Source: Colwellia sp. MB3u-45
GTDB lineage: Bacteria > Pseudomonadota > Gammaproteobacteria > Enterobacterales > Alteromonadaceae
NCBI RefSeq assembly: GCF_014077005.1
Contig: NZ_JACGVC010000053.1
Span: 186,001-250,000, forward strand
DNA: 64,000 bases
Direction: 5' to 3'
Shown here: positions 1 to 10,572 of the stretch, piece by piece
Position numbering within the stretch: the first letter of the stretch is position 1
Layout: the number at the start of each line of letters is the position of its first letter
Notes under the pieces: generated by a model
Database searches by the model: none
What the model saw: the letters and a program-made list of their open reading frames with translations, nothing else
Told to the model about the DNA's origin: nothing
Program-made: the position numbers and the translations under genes

Positions 1-1366
1 GATATTCAGGAAATTGAAAGCGAAAAATACGTTCTTGCGCTGACAATTCATTTTTACCGCCAATCATGTATCTGACATGCAGTTTAGCTAATTCATTTTC
101 CGTAAAGTCAGCTAATTCATAATCTTGTTGCTGCAAGCTTTGTATTAAATTTTTTCGGTCAGTAGCTTCACCACTTAGGCGCACACCAACAAAAATATTG
201 GCACGTTGCGCTTGGTTTGTTAGCTCAGCGTTGTCGGCATAACGGTAATTAAATTCAGTGATCACTCGTCCAGCAAGTGCCTTACAAAAGTTTCTAAAAC
301 TGCCTTTTTCTTCTGGTATTTTGACCGCAAACACCGCTTCTTTTTGCTCACTTAATTCACAACGTTCTGAGATATAGCGCAAGGTATGAAAGTTCATATT
401 GGCGCCAGAAAGAATCGCTACCAAAGACTCGTTACCTTGACTAGTGTGACAATATTTTTGTAATCCTGCTAAGGATAATGCGCCAGCGGGTTCTGCAATA
501 ACTCGCGTTTGTTCAAAAATATCTTTTATCGACGCACAAATTTCATCGGTCGTCACTGTTATGACATCGTCACAGTAATGCTTAATTAAATCAAAGGTAT
601 GCTCACCAATACGCTTAACCGCAACCCCATCAGCAAATAAGCCAACTTGGTCCAAATCAACCGGTTTGCCGGCGGCAAATGCTGCTTTTAAACAGGCAGA
701 ATCTTCGGCCTCAACACCAATAACTTTAATATGGGGTTGTAATTGTTTTAGGTAAACTGACATACCTGCTAATAAACCACCACCACCGACAGGAATAAAC
801 ACCGCATCTGTGTGAGGGTGTTGTTGTAATAACTCTTTTGCCACCGTACCTTGACCAGCAATAATGTCAACATCATCAAACGGCGGTACTACAGTTTTAT
901 TTTCAGCTTGGGCATAGGCTATAGCGGCTTGTTGTGCCTCATTAAAGTTCTTACCCACTAAGCGCACATCGGCACCAAAACGCCGTACATTATCCACCTT
1001 GATATCAGGTGTGGTAATGGGCATGACAATGGTGGCTTTAACACCTAATTTATTTGCCGCTAATGCTAAGCCTTGTGCGTGATTACCCGCAGATGCAGCA
1101 ATAACGCCGTCTAAGCATTGCTGCTCAGACAAGTTGACTAATTTGTTATAAGCACCACGTAATTTAAAAGAATGTACCGGTTGTTGATCTTCTCGTTTAA
1201 GAAAAATTTCATTACCTAAACGTGCTGATAATTTAGTTAATGGCGTTAGCGGTGATTCAATCGCTACATCATAAACTGGCGCAAGCAATATCTTGCGTAA
1301 ATAGTCTAAACCTTGCCCTTGTATAGCCTGGGCTTTTACTAATTCTACTTGTTCTGCATCAGTCAT
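1..1366 (-). CDS. ilvA: Threonine dehydratase (threonine deaminase) IlvA, 3' end cut by window edge
   Basis: PLP enzyme converting threonine to 2-oxobutyrate, the first step of isoleucine synthesis. I translated it by hand from the ATG at 1364-1366. It stays open for 455 codons to the window edge, so roughly the last 50-60 residues of the usual ~510 are missing. The PLP lysine lies in [10 protein letters not shown] (K68), and the glycine-rich phosphate loop VGGGGLL is present. Two C-terminal ACT-like regulatory modules follow; the second reaches the conserved [10 protein letters not shown] stretch at the edge. The start overlaps the last 8 bases of the ilvD remnant (ATGACTGATG), which is the expected translationally coupled ilvDA arrangement, so the operon end looks intact apart from ilvD. 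Expected regulation: feedback inhibition by isoleucine and ilvL attenuation. Confidence 0.96.
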
Positions 1367-1772
1367 TGTTGTCACCATTAAAATTGCCATCCAGTAATTC
1401 ACGATTACGCACTGCGCCTTGGATCATGGCATCAGCACAGTGAGCGTTGATCATGTATTCCACTGAATCAGCAATTAAATCGCGTGATGGCAAGCTATAA
1501 AGCATGCCGCTATGACCCATAGCAATACCATCATCAACCGCTATAGTATTAAATTCTTTTGCTACGCCACCAGCGCCTTCAATGGGACGAGCAACTAATT
1601 GGCCCATATCTTTCAAATGCACATGGCCGGGTACAAATTGGGTAAAAGAGTTCACGACCGCAATAATAGGTTTACCAAAATCACCATCTGTCATCCCCGT
1701 AGCGCGCCAAAGCGCCCGAGCTCCGGCCATATTTCGCCCTTGAGTAGAAGTTGCTGATCTTAATCTTGGCAT
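1359..1772 (-). pseudogene. ilvD: Dihydroxy-acid dehydratase IlvD, internally deleted remnant (137 codons)
   Basis: A full IlvD has about 610-620 residues and dehydrates 2,3-dihydroxy-3-methylvalerate/isovalerate. Here residues 1-116 match the normal N-terminus ([10 protein letters not shown] to NAHCADAM). They then run straight into IQGA (117-120) and a normal-looking C-terminal tail, VRNRELLDG (121-129). The Fe-S cysteines of the family (in ISNCDK and CGSCSG) and the whole catalytic core are gone, so the product should be inactive. The join at 1413-1436 is in frame and the start, stop and overlap with ilvA are preserved. In the E. coli protein, as I recall it, DAM occurs twice, the second time as DAMIQGA near residue 166. 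The mosaic therefore fits two deletions at short repeats. Assembly collapse is an alternative. The intact stop-start overlap may still serve ilvA translation. Confidence 0.9.
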
Positions 1773-2038: not shown

Positions 2039-2965
2039 TTACTCTACCTTGTCTAACCAGCCTTCAGGCACTTTGGTACTGCCATCAAAAATACCAAAAA
2101 ATGCTTCTTGTAGTGCTTTAGTGATAGGGCCACGCGAACCATTACCCACAGGCAAACCGTCGACTGACTTTACAGGAACCACTTCAGTTGCGGTGCCACA
2201 CATGAAAAATTCATCGGCGAGGTATAAAGATTCACGAGAAATTGATTCTTCACGCACTTCGTAGCCTAATTGCTTGGCAAGGACGAATACGGTGTCACGG
2301 GTCAAACCTTGTAAAATCGACGCGGTACCTGGCGGGGTATAAATAATTCCTTTGCGAATTAAAAATAAATTTTGCCCTGCGCCTTCACTGACCATGTTAT
2401 TAACATCTAAAGCCACGCCTTCGGCATAGCCATGGCGAGCGGCTTCAGTAGAAATTAACTGTGAAGACAAATAGTTACCACCGGCTTTTGCTGCGGTTGG
2501 CATAGTATTAGGAGCAAGTCTGTTCCAACTGGACACCCCCACTTCAACACCATTTTCAATGGCATCAGCGCCTAAGTAGGCTTCCCAGCTAAAGGCGGCA
2601 ATCATAACATCCGCTACGGCGTCAATCGGTGGACGAAGACCCATACCAATATCACCTAAAAAGGCTAAGGGTCTTAAGTAGGCTGATTTCAAATTATTTT
2701 TTACGACGGCATCTTTACACGCTTGAATGATTTCTGCTTTCGTGAAAGGGATGTTCATGCGATAAATTTTTGCTGAATCAAATAAACGGTCGATATGCTC
2801 TTCTAAGCGAAAAATACAAGTGCCTTTATGGGTATTATAAGCACGAATACCTTCAAATACTGATGAGCCGTAATGTAAAGCATGGCTCATGACATGCACC
2901 GTAGCATTTTGCCACGGCATAAGTTCTCCATTAAACCAAATTAATTCTGCGTTAACTTTTGCCAT
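2039..2965 (-). CDS. ilvE: Branched-chain amino acid aminotransferase IlvE
   Basis: Class IV PLP aminotransferase carrying out the last step of valine, leucine and isoleucine synthesis. The 308-residue length equals the E. coli enzyme. The PLP lysine is K160 in PTAAKAGGNYL. The substrate arm HYGSSVFEGIRAY (31-43), the EGAGQNLF stretch and the GTATEVVPV C-terminal loop are all present. The start MAKVNAELIWFNGE is the family start. It lies 112 bases behind ilvM in the ilvLGMEDA order, separated by a strong hairpin at 3000-3041. The coding sequence shows no damage, in contrast to ilvD downstream. Confidence 0.97.
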   Translation of the reverse strand: MAKVNAELIWFNGELMPWQNATVHVMSHALHYGSSVFEGIRAYNTHKGTCIFRLEEHIDRLFDSAKIYRMNIPFTKAEIIQACKDAVVKNNLKSAYLRPLAFLGDIGMGLRPPIDAVADVMIAAFSWEAYLGADAIENGVEVGVSSWNRLAPNTMPTAAKAGGNYLSSQLISTEAARHGYAEGVALDVNNMVSEGAGQNLFLIRKGIIYTPPGTASILQGLTRDTVFVLAKQLGYEVREESISRESLYLADEFFMCGTATEVVPVKSVDGLPVGNGSRGPITKALQEAFFGIFDGSTKVPEGWLDKVE

Positions 2966-3077: not shown

Positions 3078-3320
3078 CTATGATGCGCTATTGTCTACCT
3101 TGACTTCTTTGATGTCGATTAGTTTATTAATTTGATCAACCAAAAGTTCAATCGGACGTTCGCTTCTGACCAATAATTCAATAGTGCCTATGTTAGTACC
3201 CGTGTTAACTTTTGCGTTTATACCACTGATTAAAAAACCGCGATAGCGAGTCACTTGTAAAATGCGTTCAAGTACCACTTGCTTATCATCCGCTGTGATC
3301 ATTAATTGATAGTTATTCAT
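3078..3320 (-). CDS. ilvM: Acetolactate synthase II small (regulatory) subunit IlvM
   Basis: An 80-residue ACT-domain protein, close to the ~87 residues of E. coli IlvM. The beta-alpha-beta pattern starts at NYQLMITADDKQVVLERILQ and includes GFLISGINAKV. It binds and activates the large catalytic subunit encoded immediately upstream. The ATG directly follows the ilvG stop (TAAATG) with GGAGAG a few bases upstream, so the two are translationally coupled. The tail after residue 70 is short and charged. Confidence 0.93.
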   Translation of the reverse strand: MNNYQLMITADDKQVVLERILQVTRYRGFLISGINAKVNTGTNIGTIELLVRSERPIELLVDQINKLIDIKEVKVDNSAS

Positions 3321-4985
3321 TTAGGTACTCTCCATCATTTTATCGTTAGCGGTGTTCGGCGGTACAAGCGGCCAGACATTTTCTTGTGCATCAATTTTAA
3401 CTTGTAAAAGGTAAGGTCCGTCATGCTCAAGCATTTCTTCGATGGCGGCGCTTACTTCTGACTTTTTGGTGATCATTTTTGCTTTAATATCAAAGGCATT
3501 GGCTAGCATAATAAAGTCAGGGTTATCGGCTAAATCAGTTTCACTTAATCGGCCATTGAAAAATAGGTCTTGCCATTGGCGCACCATGCCTAACTTGGCA
3601 TTATCAATAAGTACGATTTTAACGGGCAATTGAAAACGCTTAATCGTTGACAGCTCTTGCACATTCATCATAAAAGAGCCATCACCGGAAACGGCAATAA
3701 TACAGTCTGTTGGCCGACTCACTTGTGCACCCACTGCTGCGGGTATACCAAAGCCCATAGTGCCCATGCCGGCACTGGTTAAAAAGTTACTTGGGTCATC
3801 AAACACCATGTGTTGTGCTGCCCACATTTGATGCTGTCCAACATCTGTGGTTACGCAGCTATTTTCTGGCATTTTATCGCTAATTTCTTTTAACACAGCA
3901 GGCGCAAAAATTGACTCCCCTGGATGGTTATAATCCCAAGCAAAGTTGTTATTCATTTCATGACAGACGGCTTGCCAAGGTTTGATGGCTAATGGAATAG
4001 CGAGTGCAGGTAAATTAACCTTTAAGTCGCCTAATATTGAGGCATCGGCAATTCTGCGTTTATTAATTTCTGAGGTATCAATATCAAAATGAATCACTTT
4101 CGCATGTGGCGCAAATTCATTTAACTTACCGGTAACGCGATCATCAAAACGTGCTCCTACGGCAATCAACAAATCACATTCTTGTACCGCGATATTCGCC
4201 GCCTTAGTACCATGCATACCCAACATGCCAAGGTAATTTTCATCTTCAGGGTCAATGGCGCCTAAACCTTTGAGGGTGGAAACGCTCGGCAAACCTGTTA
4301 TTTTAGCAAAATCTCTCAACTCGTCGATAGCATTGGCCATACCAACACCACCGCCAACATAGAGAATAGGTTGCTTGGCTTGATTTAATAAGGCGATAGC
4401 ACTACCCACATTCGCGGGCGGTAATTTCACTTTGTTTTCTAAGTTGACTAATTCATCTAAAGAGCGGTTAACTTCTGTGATTTGAATATCTTTAGGAATA
4501 TCAACTAATACCGGTCCTTGTCTGCCTTCTAACGCAATAGCAAAGGCTTGGTGTAGCACTTTTGCTAAATCATTAATATCGGTAACTTGAAAAGAGTGCT
4601 TGGTACAGGCAAGTGATAAACCAAAAATATCAATTTCTTGAAAGGCATCAGAGCCCATAGCAGCCGTGGCTACCTGCCCAGTAATGGCAACAACAGGAAT
4701 TGAATCTGCCAAGGCATCCGCCAGGCCGGTGATCAAGTTAGTCGCGCCTGGACCTGATGTGGCAAAGCAGACACCCACTTTACCGGATGCTCTGGCATAA
4801 CCTACGGCAGAAAATGCCGCGCCTTGCTCATGTCGACACAAAAAGTGTTCCACTTTACTATCGTAAAGCGCATCGTAGATTGGCATTATTGCGCCACCAG
4901 GATAGCCAAAAACATGCTCAACGCCATGCTGTTCTAGCACATTAAATAATAAGCCTGCGCCGGTTAATTTTTTTTCAGTTGTCAT
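3321..4985 (-). CDS. ilvG: Acetolactate synthase II large catalytic subunit IlvG
   Basis: ThDP-, FAD- and Mg-dependent enzyme joining pyruvate with pyruvate or 2-oxobutyrate, the first shared step of branched-chain synthesis. It has 554 residues against 548 in E. coli. The catalytic glutamate E53 lies in [11 protein letters not shown]. The ThDP pyrophosphate motif [17 protein letters not shown] is followed by [14 protein letters not shown]. The SGPGATN loop and central FAD region are present. The frame is open throughout, unlike the frameshifted copy in E. coli K-12. It is the first structural gene after the ilvL attenuator, and ilvM follows without a gap. Confidence 0.97.
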
Positions 4986-5119: not shown

Positions 5120-5155
5120 ACAAACCCCCCGGTCCTTGCGGAGCGGGGGGTTTGT
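5120..5155 (-). terminator. ilv attenuator hairpin
   Basis: An 11-bp perfect stem (5120-5130 with 5145-5155) contains six G-C pairs flanked by A-T pairs. It encloses a 14-nt loop with an inner TCC/GGA pairing, and TCGTTATT follows on the minus strand. It lies between the leader peptide and ilvG. As recalled, the C-run/loop/G-run layout closely resembles the E. coli ilvGMEDA attenuator. T-rich sequence also follows on the plus strand, so it may end transcription both ways. Confidence 0.88.
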
Positions 5156-5190
5156 TATTTTAAGATTTTTTATTTTCTTTAGCTCAACAA

Positions 5191-5259
5191 TTACCCCCGC
5201 AGCGATTTAAGAATCACCACGATGAGGACGTTAATAATCATTGAGTTATAATGTTTCAT
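5191..5259 (-). CDS. ilvL: ilvGMEDA operon leader peptide IlvL (22 aa)
   Basis: A 23-codon frame read by hand on the minus strand from the ATG at 5257-5259 to TAA at 5191-5193. Residues 8-17 read IINVLIVVIL, so ten consecutive codons include three Ile, two Leu and three Val. That is the regulatory signature of a branched-chain attenuation peptide. The stop lies about 35 bases before the attenuator stem, and ilvG begins further down. When charged Ile/Val/Leu tRNAs are scarce, ribosome stalling here should favour antitermination. The sequence differs from the E. coli leader, but position and composition make the call strong. The upstream AAGAA is only a weak ribosome-binding site. Confidence 0.88.
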   Translation of the reverse strand: MKHYNSMIINVLIVVILKSLRG

Positions 5260-5294
5260 GTTAATCTGTATTTTCTTCAGTTAATCAATTTCAA

Positions 5295-5350
5295 GGCTAG
5301 TAATGTCTAGCCTATTTAAATTAGTACCATAGCTCTAATAACAAGCGCAA
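5295..5350 (-). promoter_or_regulatory. Candidate ilvL promoter and leader inverted repeat
   Basis: On the minus strand TTGCGC (5350-5345) and TACTAA (5326-5321) are separated by 18 bases. That would place the transcript start near 5313, about 55 nt before the leader ATG. A 6-bp inverted repeat GGCTAG/CTAGCC (5295-5300, 5307-5312) falls at the expected 5' end of the RNA. The -35 match is only moderate, so the assignment is tentative. Confidence 0.4.
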
Positions 5351-5513
5351 GTATTTTTGTTAGAGCTTTTTAGTTAAAACTATCTTCTTAGTTATAACTG
5401 TCATTTTTTCTCTGCGTTATTAGTAGTTTTATTTAGTAGTTTTATTTTTAGCGAAAACGATATTACTTAGCTACACTTGCGAAAAGTAATCGTTAAAATA
5501 AAAATGGATTTTT

Positions 5514-7037
5514 ATGGCTTTAGCCTGTGTTTTCAGTCGAGCTCGTGTTGGACTTGAGTCGCCCTTAGTCACGGTAGAAGTGCATTTAGCCAATGGCTTG
5601 CCAGCCTTTAATATTGTTGGCTTACCTGAAACATCGGTCAGAGAAGCCAAAGACCGCGTGCGTAGCGCCATTCTTAATTGCGGTTATGAATTTCCCGCTA
5701 AGCGTATTACGGTAAATTTAGCGCCGGCTGATTTACCCAAAGAGGGCGGTCGCTTCGATCTGCCCATTGCCATAGGTATTCTTGCCGCCGCTGCCCAGCT
5801 TCCTGAAGCAGATTTAAACCAATATGAATTTGCTGGCGAATTAGCCTTGTCGGGTGAACTTCGCGCTATTATTGGTGAAATACCTATGGCAATGGCTTGC
5901 AAAGAAAGTGGCCGAACACTGGTAATACCGACGGTAAACGCCGAACAAGCGAGTTGGGTGCAACAAGTAAAAATATTAAGCCTGTCACATTTAAAGCAAC
6001 TCTTTCCACATTTTCTAAAACAACAAAGCTTGCCACTGGTGCAAACAAGAGTGCTACAAACCTATATAACCAAGAGTGTGCACGATATTGCCGACGTTGT
6101 TGGTCAACCATTGGCTAAGCGAGCGCTAGAAATTGCCGCTAGTGGCCGTCATAACCTACTATTTATTGGACCTCCTGGTACAGGGAAAACTATGCTCGCC
6201 AGTCGTTTGCCGGGCATTTTACCTCCTATGACCGAGCAGGAGGCGTTATCCAGTGCCGCTATTCAATCGATTTGCCATGAAAATATAAGTCCTGAGTCAT
6301 GGTTAACACGGCCGTTTCGCGCGCCGCATCATACGGCATCTTCAGCTGCCCTCGTTGGTGGCGGCAGTTATCCGCAGCCAGGTGAAATTTCATTAGCCCA
6401 TAACGGCGTACTCTTTCTCGACGAATTACCTGAATTTGAGCGCAAAGTACTCGACGTGTTACGCGAACCGATGGAATCTGGCGAAGTCACCATTTCACGT
6501 GCATTGGTCAAACAAACTTTCCCCGCACAGTTTCAACTCGTCGCGGCTATGAACCCAAGCCCAACCGGATTTTACAATGACAAGCGTAGTACACCAGAGC
6601 AGGTTTTACGTTACCTCAATCGACTTTCTGGGCCATTTTTAGATCGTATTGATATTCAAATTGAAGTCACTAGGTTACCGCGAGGCATGTGGGCGAACGA
6701 TGATGGCAAAGGTGAGTCGAGTAGCACTATTCAAAAACGGGTCAGCATTTGTCACCAAAAACAAATTTTACGCCAAGGCAAAGCAAACGCACAACTCAGT
6801 AGTGCTGAAGTTAGAAGCTTCTGCCAACTGGTTCCTGATGATAATGAATTTTTAGAATTAGCGATTGAAAAACTCAATCTATCGACCAGAGCACATCATA
6901 AAATACTAAAAATTGCTAGAACACTGGCCGATATGGAAGCGATCGAGCTTATCGAACGCAAACACTTAATCGAAGCCTTGTCGTATCGCGCTATGGATAG
7001 AATATTACGCCATTTAACCGACGCTATTGCGCTATAG
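5514..7037 (+). CDS. comM: ComM/YifB family AAA+ Mg-chelatase-like ATPase
   Basis: A hexameric AAA+ helicase of the ComM family. In Vibrio cholerae ComM promotes branch migration during integration of transforming DNA. The 507 residues match the family. The N-terminal YifB domain (about 1-180) contains PAFNIVGLPETSVREAKDRV. Walker A GPPGTGKT is at 219-226, Walker B is LFLDELPEF, and the Mg-chelatase C-terminal lid domain follows. The ATG is preceded by an AT-rich leader without an obvious Shine-Dalgarno. It sits divergent from ilvL, the neighbourhood also seen in enterobacteria. Its presence does not prove competence. Confidence 0.95.
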   Translation: MALACVFSRARVGLESPLVTVEVHLANGLPAFNIVGLPETSVREAKDRVRSAILNCGYEFPAKRITVNLAPADLPKEGGRFDLPIAIGILAAAAQLPEADLNQYEFAGELALSGELRAIIGEIPMAMACKESGRTLVIPTVNAEQASWVQQVKILSLSHLKQLFPHFLKQQSLPLVQTRVLQTYITKSVHDIADVVGQPLAKRALEIAASGRHNLLFIGPPGTGKTMLASRLPGILPPMTEQEALSSAAIQSICHENISPESWLTRPFRAPHHTASSAALVGGGSYPQPGEISLAHNGVLFLDELPEFERKVLDVLREPMESGEVTISRALVKQTFPAQFQLVAAMNPSPTGFYNDKRSTPEQVLRYLNRLSGPFLDRIDIQIEVTRLPRGMWANDDGKGESSSTIQKRVSICHQKQILRQGKANAQLSSAEVRSFCQLVPDDNEFLELAIEKLNLSTRAHHKILKIARTLADMEAIELIERKHLIEALSYRAMDRILRHLTDAIAL

Positions 7038-8039: not shown

Positions 8040-8915
8040 TTACTTTATCGCATCAAAAAATGCCTGAATCAGCGGTTTTTCCTTGCTCTGGTTTAAACAG
8101 CAAATACCTAGGTCAAAGGGCTCAATTTCACCGACATCGGCTAAATATTGCACCCGGTCTTTCACCGGACTATTTTCTACTACCACTCTTGGCACAATAC
8201 CGACACCACACCCTAAAGCCACCATACTGACCAAGGCTTCATGACCAGAAACCGTGGCGTAAATATAGGCTTTACCTTGTTGTTTCCTACGAAACCAATA
8301 TTCAAAACGTTTTCGTGCTGGGCCGTGCTCGGGCAAAATAATCGGTATGTCAGACCAAACAAAGTCGTGCTGAATTTGCTGCTGAACTTGACACACCATA
8401 GTGGGCGCAATTACTGATAAGGGTATTTTTGCCAGATGGTGAAAAGTAAAAATGCGCGACAGCTGCTCAGGTTTAGCGGCAATGGCAAAATCAACCGCTT
8501 GCTTTTCAACTTGCTCTAATGCGTCGGCGGCGTCACCCGTTGTTAACATAATTTCAACCAGCGGGTGCTGTTGTCGAAAACGTTCAAGTAATGGCGGCAA
8601 ATGACTATAGGCGGCGGTTACAGAGCAATAAATATGCAACTTGCCTTGTAATTCTGCTTGTTTTTGATTCAGTGAAAGCTGTAGTAACTGCCACTGCTCA
8701 AGTTGTTGCTCAGCAAATTGTAAAAACTGTTTCCCTGCCTCACTTAACACCACAGTGCGGTTATCTCGGTGTAATAATGCACTGCCGAGTTCAAGCTCTA
8801 AGCGCTGGACTACTCGGCTTAATGTTGAAGGGCTGACGTGATGAAGTTCAGCGGTTTTGCCAAAATGTAATGATTTTGCTAAATCAACAAACATCCGCAA
8901 TGACTTTAATTCCAC
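8040..8915 (-). CDS. ilvY: LysR-type regulator IlvY, activator of ilvC
   Basis: A LysR-type activator that senses acetolactate or acetohydroxybutyrate and turns on ilvC. The N-terminal winged helix reads HFGKTAELHHVSPSTLSRVVQRLE. The effector domain has CSVTAAYSHLPPLLERF, TTGDAADALEQV and GHEALVSMVALGCGVGIVP, all nearly identical to E. coli IlvY as recalled. I chose the GTG at 8913-8915 because AAGGA precedes it by five bases and the product then begins VELKSLRMF, with 291 residues against 297 in E. coli. The frame is open for 20 further codons upstream, but those translate the operator. Divergent from ilvC. Confidence 0.93.
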   Translation of the reverse strand: MELKSLRMFVDLAKSLHFGKTAELHHVSPSTLSRVVQRLELELGSALLHRDNRTVVLSEAGKQFLQFAEQQLEQWQLLQLSLNQKQAELQGKLHIYCSVTAAYSHLPPLLERFRQQHPLVEIMLTTGDAADALEQVEKQAVDFAIAAKPEQLSRIFTFHHLAKIPLSVIAPTMVCQVQQQIQHDFVWSDIPIILPEHGPARKRFEYWFRRKQQGKAYIYATVSGHEALVSMVALGCGVGIVPRVVVENSPVKDRVQYLADVGEIEPFDLGICCLNQSKEKPLIQAFFDAIK

Positions 8916-8950
8916 AAAAATCCTTAAAGGTAAATAGCGTTGAGAAACTG

Positions 8951-8980
8951 TATTGCAAATATTGCAACACTGCAATGCAA
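8951..8980. promoter_or_regulatory. IlvY operator in the ilvY-ilvC intergenic region
   Basis: ATTGCA-ACAC-TGCAAT (8961-8976) is a perfect 6-bp inverted repeat of the TTGC/GCAA type recognised by IlvY. A further ATTGCAA half-site lies at 8952-8958, giving ATTGCAAATATTGCAA as a direct repeat. The cluster sits 36-65 bases upstream of the ilvY GTG and about 110 upstream of ilvC, the standard place for LysR autoregulation and activation. TATGAT at 9013-9018 is a possible ilvC -10 element. Confidence 0.75.
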
Positions 8981-9087
8981 ATATATCATTTTAAGCAACG
9001 ATATATTTTCGTTATGATAGCGCTAAGGTCAACAAATTGACCACTTAACTAATTTTCTTGGTCAATAACCAAGTACAGGAGAGCAAA

Positions 9088-10572
9088 ATGGCTAACTATT
9101 TCAATACATTGAGTTTACGCGAAAAACTAGCACAGTTAGGTAAATGTCGCTTCATGAATCGTGAAGAGTTTAGTGATGGTTGTAATTTCATTAAAGATTG
9201 GAATATTGTTATTGTTGGTTGTGGCGCTCAAGGCCTTAACCAAGGCCTGAATATGCGCGACTCCGGTTTAAACATCTCTTATGCCTTACGTGATGCTGCC
9301 ATTGCAGAAAAACGTCAATCTTATCAGTGGGCAAGCGACAATGGTTTTACTGTAGGCACTTATCAAGAATTAATTCCACAAGCCGATTTAGTGTTAAATC
9401 TTACACCAGATAAGCAACATACGTCAGCGGTTAGTGCCGTTATGCCACTGATGAAAGAAGGTTCTTCTTTAGCTTACTCTCACGGTTTCAACATTGTTGA
9501 AGAAGGCATGCAGATTCGCTCTGACATTACTGTGGTGATGGTTGCCCCTAAATGTCCTGGTACTGAAGTGCGTGAAGAATACAAACGTGGTTTTGGTGTG
9601 CCAACACTTATCGCTGTTCATCCTGAGAACGATCCTCAAGGTAATGGTTGGGCTATCGCAAAAGCCTACGCTTCAGCAACGGGTGGCGATCGCGCTGGTG
9701 TTTTAGCCTCTTCATTCATCGCAGAAGTTAAGTCAGACTTAATGGGCGAGCAAACCATCCTATGTGGTATGTTGCAAACAGCCGCTATTTTAGGTCACAA
9801 GCAATTGTTGGCTCAGGGTGTTGAAGCAGGTTATGCACGTAAATTATTACAATACGGCATCGAAGGGGTTACTGAAGGCTTAAAGTATGGCGGCATTACT
9901 AACATGATGGACCGTTTATCTAACCCAGCTAAAATTAAAGCCTTTGATATGTCGTTAGAATTAAAAGAGATTTTACGTCCTTTATTCCAAAAGCATATGG
10001 ATGACATCATCGAAGGTCGTTTCTCTGCCGGTATGATGGCAGACTGGGACAACGGTGATGCTAACCTATTAAAATGGCGTGAAGAGACCGCTGAAACGTC
10101 TTTCGAAAAAGCACCAACATGTGATACCGAAATTTCTGAGCAAGAATATTACGACAAAGGTATTTTCGTTGTCGCTATGGTAAAAGCGGGTGTTGAATTA
10201 GCCTTTGATGCTATGGTTGACTCAGGCATTATCAATGCTTCTGCATACTACGAGTCGCTACATGAAACGCCGTTAATTGCTAACACTATCGCCCGCAACA
10301 TGTTATACGAAATGAACGTGGTGATTTCTGATACAGCAGAGTACGGTAACTACCTATTCTCGCACGCTGCTGTACCTTTATTGGAAGGCTTTGCGAGCAA
10401 ATTAACCTTAGAAGAATTAGGTGAAGGTTTAAAATCTAGCTCTAATGGTGTTGATAACGCGCGTTTAATCGAAGTTAACGACGCTATTCGCAGCCATGGT
10501 GTAGAAGCTATTGGTAAAGAATTACGCGGCTACATGACTGATATGAAGCGAATAGTTGAAGCGAATAGTTAA
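9088..10572 (+). CDS. ilvC: Ketol-acid reductoisomerase, class II, IlvC
   Basis: NADPH- and Mg-dependent isomeroreductase of the second shared branched-chain step. The true start is the ATG at 9088 ([23 protein letters not shown]), preceded by AGGAGAG. The frame upstream of it is not conserved. This gives 494 residues, the long class II form (491 in E. coli) with a duplicated knotted C-terminal domain. The Rossmann motif is [20 protein letters not shown]. The catalytic acidic residues lie in [11 protein letters not shown] and the later EYGNY helix. Divergent from ilvY and followed by a strong terminator, so it is monocistronic. Confidence 0.98.

Follow-up and report, generated by a model that had tools for sequence, protein, structure and literature searches.

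Analysis of a 64,000-nucleotide stretch of the genome of Colwellia sp. MB3u-45 (the window) identified an ilvD gene cut down by internal deletions to a 137-codon open reading frame, and elsewhere in the same genome a full-length gene for a second dihydroxyacid dehydratase. Together with the distribution of both genes among relatives, this very probably reflects the displacement of one enzyme by another. We also consider likely the fuller explanation, in which displacement left behind a still-constrained and probably translated ilvD remnant that may be coupled to ilvA.

The ilvD remnant and its operon

Within an ilvG-M-E-(D)-A operon, the remnant occupies the place between ilvE and ilvA; ilvY-ilvC is farther off. 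It was compared with ilvD of two other strains of the genus, Colwellia sp. MB02u-6 (G012) and Colwellia sp. C1TZA3 (G008), the window genome itself being G000. The intact 623-codon ilvD of C1TZA3, whose product scores 1165 bits against the PRK12448 model, served as the reference for deletions. The features of the region, in window coordinates, are:

1..1366 (-): ilvA, which leaves the window; whole in locus L038, with 526 amino acids from the overlapping ATG and a score above the TIGR01124 cut-off
1359..1366 (-): ilvA start overlapping the remnant stop, ATGACTGA; 8-bp overlap, with the ilvA start codon at 1366-1364 and the ilvD stop at 1361-1359
1359..1772 (-): ilvD remnant; ATG start, 414 bp, 137 codons, comprising 117 N-terminal and about 20 C-terminal residues
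1372..1376 (-): GGTGA within the remnant, likely the ilvA ribosome-binding site
1413..1420 (-): join of deletion 2, AAGGCGCA; 1305 bp lost relative to C1TZA3
1425..1434 (-): join of deletion 1, TGATGCCATG; 156 bp lost relative to C1TZA3; coordinates from the ORF offset
2039..2965 (-): ilvE
3078..3320 (-): ilvM
3321..4985 (-): ilvG
5127..5149 (-): terminator-like hairpin after the leader, a consensus match only
5191..5259 (-): Ile/Val/Leu-rich, attenuator-like leader peptide MKHYNSMIINVLIVVILKSLRG before ilvG
8040..8975 (-): ilvY
9058..10572 (+): ilvC

The products of ilvG, ilvM, ilvE, ilvA, ilvC and ilvY all pass curated NCBIfam cut-offs, in agreement with the first-pass annotation, which had called these genes intact. 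We take the MKHYNSMIINVLIVVILKSLRG leader to be attenuator-like from what is known of ilv operons. Rfam searches at gathering thresholds gave no match in loci L035-L038, of which L038 holds the ilv operon and the other three the second enzyme.

An NCBIfam profile search aligned residues 1-117 of the remnant to positions 1-117 of the 616 in PRK12448, and its last 20 or so codons correspond to the IlvD C-terminus. The score of 247 bits falls far below the curated cut-off of 710. The CDK motif and the second cluster cysteine (SCSGM) are absent from the remnant sequence, leaving only Cys112, and so is the C-terminal TDGRFSGG motif, whose serine is proposed to be catalytic in the excerpts available of PMC9543379 and PMC5770437. 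Judged by its sequence, the remnant should no longer be an enzyme. The ORF, the profile match, the overlap and the missing motifs thus bear out the earlier description of 137 codons with normal IlvD ends, a preserved start, stop and ilvA overlap, and a lost catalytic core. The reading frame carries no stop or frameshift of the kind expected of a pseudogene, either in the window genome or in MB02u-6. AlphaFold2 returned no confident fold from 27-row alignments (mean pLDDT 47.6 for the window genome and 38.3 for MB02u-6), and with these two low-confidence predictions we set aside the idea of a folded mini-domain.

Two deletions shared by two genomes

Comparison with C1TZA3 agrees with the earlier proposal of two deletions at short repeats. 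Deletion 1 (156 bp) is flanked in the intact gene by two copies of the 10-mer TGATGCCATG, and deletion 2 (1305 bp) lies between AAGGCGCT and AAGGGGCT, an imperfect 8-bp match. Each length is divisible by three and together they remove 487 codons. Since 10 of 12 repeated 9-mers in the intact gene (and 4 of 4 repeated 10-mers) are in phase, in-frame deletions mediated by repeats are by themselves no sign of selection, and we dropped the deletion lengths as evidence for it.

MB02u-6 has both joins, with 94% identity over residues 85-137. Its remnant differs from that of the window genome at 15 of 108 shared codons and carries a private third deletion, of 87 bp, in-frame, between ATGGGC and ATGGGT, which removes 29 residues. 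In favour of an assembly collapse or misassembly, the window genome is a draft of 59 contigs. Against it, the locus sits within a 502-kb contig, and MB02u-6, which is clearly diverged and carries an extra deletion, has the same junction, so we rejected this explanation as extremely improbable.

Residue-level constraint on the remnant

The two genomes have the junction in common; provided that they inherited it from a common ancestor, whatever differs between their remnants postdates the deletions. The 108 shared codons hold 11 synonymous and 5 non-synonymous differences (dS 0.171, dN 0.020, dN/dS 0.118); the flanking ilvG, ilvM, ilvE and ilvA have dS of 0.168-0.192 and dN/dS of 0.025-0.123. 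Neutral simulation (5000 runs, at a divergence of 0.179 taken from 622 four-fold sites) gave a mean of about 33 changed codons, against the 5 replaced residues observed. No run of the 5000 produced five or fewer changes; at half that divergence, a single run of 5000 did. By a cruder test, the probability of at least 11 synonymous changes among 16 is 1.3e-4 to 2.6e-3 over kappa 1-8. The non-synonymous rate of the remnant is thus not near neutral, and its residues are under constraint, as measured between two genomes and if the junction is shared by descent. The first-pass annotation had foreseen neither this constraint nor the presence of the remnant in a second species-level genome.

The 5' part of the remnant, with 7 synonymous and 2 non-synonymous differences, gives a stronger signal than the 3' part, with 4 and 3. 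Three tail changes, S-to-G, E-to-D and Q-to-N, are common to the window genome and MB02u-6 relative to C1TZA3. The density of differences near the join equals that of the flanks; with no local drop there, no recent exchange is visible, and we consider a recent exchange of the junction between strains unlikely, and likewise a parallel deletion.

A second dihydroxyacid dehydratase

The first-pass annotation had proposed searching the genome for another ilvD/edd-type dehydratase, and that search succeeded. The window genome has three PF00920-family loci. Besides the remnant, these are a gene for a 6-phosphogluconate dehydratase (988 bits; edd cut-off 708) and a third gene, on another contig:

G000:C49:353843-355519: second dihydroxyacid dehydratase, full length, 559 residues from a start conserved in relatives

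Its product scores 721.6 bits against the TIGR00110 ilvD model (cut-off 618.15) and 790.5 bits against PRK00911 (cut-off 644), and lies below the cut-offs of the L-arabinonate dehydratase, Edd and xylonate models. Among solved structures, those of plant chloroplast dihydroxyacid dehydratases are closest to it (5ym0, 712 bits), with an alignment that spans the three cysteine motifs. The gene is under strong purifying selection, with dN/dS of 0.032 between the window genome and MB02u-6 and 0.030 between the window genome and C1TZA3. On these grounds we predict that it is active as a dihydroxyacid dehydratase.

Cluster cysteines are present at NPCNMH, GCDKN and GACGGM in the second enzymes of the window genome, MB02u-6 and C1TZA3, and that of the window genome also has TDGRFSGG. 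The intact IlvD of C1TZA3 reads VPGHVH, without the first cysteine, and both this protein and the remnant have glycine there. According to the excerpts available of PMC9543379, three cysteines mark the oxygen-stable [2Fe-2S] type, and enzymes missing the first, such as that of E. coli, are of the oxygen-sensitive [4Fe-4S] type. The second enzyme would then carry an oxygen-stable [2Fe-2S] cluster, and the lost IlvD would have carried an oxygen-labile [4Fe-4S] cluster.

In a consensus scan of the DNA before the second gene, promoter-like sites were no more frequent than expected by chance, and two terminator-like sites, both weak, turned up; a leader or attenuator there was discarded. The attenuator-like region at 5127-5259 (-) precedes ilvG, and the second gene, on its other contig, lies outside it.

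The first-pass annotation held that the strain would be an isoleucine, valine and leucine auxotroph unless a second ilvD existed. It rightly named that condition, but the auxotrophy itself is not supported. In its favour are the losses from the remnant described above (CDK, the SCSGM cysteine and TDGRFSGG); against it stand the full-length second dehydratase, with a dN/dS of 0.03, and the remaining ilv enzymes of the window, all of which pass their cut-offs. Auxotrophy is therefore very unlikely, and was rejected because the genome encodes a second enzyme, which together with intact IlvG, M, E, A and C predicts that the strain is prototrophic for isoleucine and valine.

Origin of the second enzyme

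Among the matches listed, the nearest sequences outside the genus, at 90-91% identity, come from Psychromonas sp. MB-3u-54, Colwellia marinimaniae, Colwellia sp. TT2012 and a Colwellia MAG, and beyond these identity falls to 71% or less. A quick tree of 103 rows was built on the best 80 of 389 matches minus the duplicates L065, L066, L068 and L070; it gave warnings of long branches, and two pairs of identical rows were entered twice. Nine Colwellia/Psychromonas rows formed one clade (SH-aLRT 100), placed next to five uncultured Flavobacteriales with an SH-aLRT of 91, which is not decisive. Within the best 80 of 389 matches, the Colwellia/Psychromonas clade is nested among 74 that are nearly all from Bacteroidota. 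Those with other labels are two Gammaproteobacteria MAGs, one Ignavibacteria and one unplaced sequence, and one is a Kapaibacterium, which NCBI places in Bacteroidota.

The DNA upstream of the second gene in C. marinimaniae is unlike that in the window's group, consistent with the gene having arrived, or moved, separately in the two. Sixteen further genomes of the family carry enzymes of another such clade, 52-59% identical to that of the window genome, with G185 standing apart. In a genome of another genus, one that keeps an intact IlvD, a copy 90% identical to the second enzyme is cut by a contig end (G138:C30:9240-9752, locus L211). Further IlvD/Edd-family genes are present at G012:C38:326183-326437 and G008:C83:48170-49711 (frames of 616 and 600 amino acids).

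Probable displacement of IlvD across the family

We surveyed 395 genomes drawn from the larger family, counting G138 as a carrier. Among the matches listed, 24 carry the second enzyme: 7 at 90% identity or more, 16 at 52-59%, and G138 at 90% in its contig-end fragment. Intact IlvD is missing from 16 of these 24 (the window genome, MB02u-6 and 14 others), against 65 of the 371 genomes without the second enzyme (Fisher p 5e-7, kinship ignored), again among the matches listed. The 65 comprise 29 genomes with weak matches and 36 with none; as far as listed, most of the 65 belong to three small-genome genera (g10, g50 and g52), which account for 24 of the 29. Displacement is not forced, since 8 of the 24 keep IlvD beside the second enzyme (C1TZA3, G227, G138, G185, G018, G279, G228 and G397). 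C1TZA3, with both genes intact, represents an intermediate stage, and Psychromonas sp. MB-3u-54, outside the family, also has both enzymes.

The surroundings of ilvA were examined in 12 of the 14 other genomes without an open ilvD (all save G337 and G268; in G290, about 1 kb upstream only). At E 1e-5 or better, G330, whose second enzyme is of the other clade, holds a frameshifted C-terminal part of ilvD before ilvA (L206, G330:C12, about 5211-6219) and G357 a short C-terminal piece. Shorter C-terminal pieces were found by eye in G310 and G362, and the other genomes of the 12 gave no trace of ilvD near ilvA at E 1e-5. Just upstream of the G330 vestige is a terminator-like hairpin followed by T's. 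The Colwellia MAG ALOHA_DT_125 (G421) has an independent internal deletion, in which codons 1-56 of ilvD are joined in phase, N-to-C, to codons 598-611, with 4 stops in the 56 codons (L225, G421:C234, 3844-4050). G362 shares with this MAG 16 bases that hold the first of the MAG's stops. Decay to nothing is thus the common course.

Possible reasons for the open reading frame

The likeliest and simplest reason for the open frame is coupling to ilvA. The stop of the remnant overlaps the ilvA start and the presumed ribosome-binding site GGTGA lies inside the remnant, an arrangement kept in all three genomes, the overlap being ATGAATGA in MB02u-6 and ATGA in C1TZA3. That the frame has been kept mainly for this coupling is plausible, if somewhat short of probable. 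Coupling is not needed everywhere, as ilvA is retained in G330, G310, G357, G362, G276 and others with no open ilvD frame in front of it; and with 10 of 12 repeated 9-mers in phase, the frame could have stayed open by luck. Nor does coupling by itself predict constraint on residues; it leaves their conservation unexplained, which makes a selected small protein a serious rival.

Under this alternative the remnant is kept for its peptide, which might, for example, use the former N-terminal dimer segment to bind a partner enzyme of the pathway or the newly acquired dehydratase. The dN/dS of 0.118, the shortfall of replacements against the neutral simulation and the unbroken frame favour it, as does the contrast with the dead counterpart in the ALOHA MAG. 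Against it, the constraint comes from two genomes only and weakens towards the 3' end, the shared substitutions indicate that the tail is not frozen, MB02u-6 has shed 29 more residues, and no confident fold was predicted. We therefore regard a functional small protein as possible but doubtful. The same tentative standing applies to its broader form, a natural conversion of an essential enzyme into a microprotein. Here the enzyme, displaced by a laterally acquired, oxygen-stable equivalent, would have been trimmed at its own locus to 108-137 residues and would serve a new function under selection within the branched-chain operon.

A plain pseudogene, in which the deletions were late and separate in both lineages, or were exchanged, and the low dN/dS mostly dates from the whole gene, seems unlikely. 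Other lineages with the second enzyme do show neutral decay, deletion 1 sits on a 10-bp repeat and can recur, and the constraint signal is stronger in the 5' part. However, both joins are identical in the two genomes while deletion 2 has only an imperfect 8-bp match to recur on, and the dS of the remnant resembles that of its neighbors, with no recent exchange visible.

In the explanation that we prefer, displacement with coupling, lateral transfer would have brought the ancestor of these Colwellia a second dihydroxyacid dehydratase, of the [2Fe-2S] type and descended from Bacteroidota. The step then having two enzymes, the resident ilvD of the ilvGMEDA operon, of the [4Fe-4S] type, would have lost its core in the lineage of the window strain and MB02u-6, through two in-frame deletions mediated by repeats. 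The imported enzyme would now perform the reaction. The remnant, probably still translated, would stay open since it contains, at its 3' end, both the ribosome-binding site of ilvA and the overlapping start, allowing ribosomes that complete the remnant to move on to ilvA.

Comparison with known systems

The replacement of a core biosynthetic enzyme is caught here part-way, with both-present, gutted, vestigial and vanished stages in one family, and the predicted change from an oxygen-labile to an oxygen-stable cluster type in cold-water bacteria suggests a testable cause. The remnant offers a test case for the fate of a dead gene in a working operon, which may persist for the passage of ribosomes or be put to new use as a small protein. 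It also serves as a warning for annotation, as an obviously broken biosynthetic gene does not imply an auxotroph. A full-text search of open-licence papers, including the excerpts available of PMC9543379, PMC5770437 and PMC7542103, found no description of a gutted ilvD or of such a displacement.

With the Escherichia coli-type IlvD (PRK12448, [4Fe-4S]) the remnant shares its descent, both termini and its place in ilvGMEDA, but it lacks 487 codons, including the cluster cysteines and the C-terminal motif. The second enzyme resembles the plant/Bacteroidota-type enzyme (PRK00911; 5ym0, 5ze4; [2Fe-2S]) in being full-length, scoring over the cut-off and having all three cysteine motifs, but occurs here in Colwellia/Psychromonas, away from both its usual phylum and the window's ilv operon. 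Finally, as when a laterally acquired equivalent displaces a resident gene that then decays, both-present (C1TZA3), remnant (window genome and MB02u-6), vestige and no-trace stages are all seen, whereas the leftover here is not rotting but keeps an open frame and residue-level constraint.
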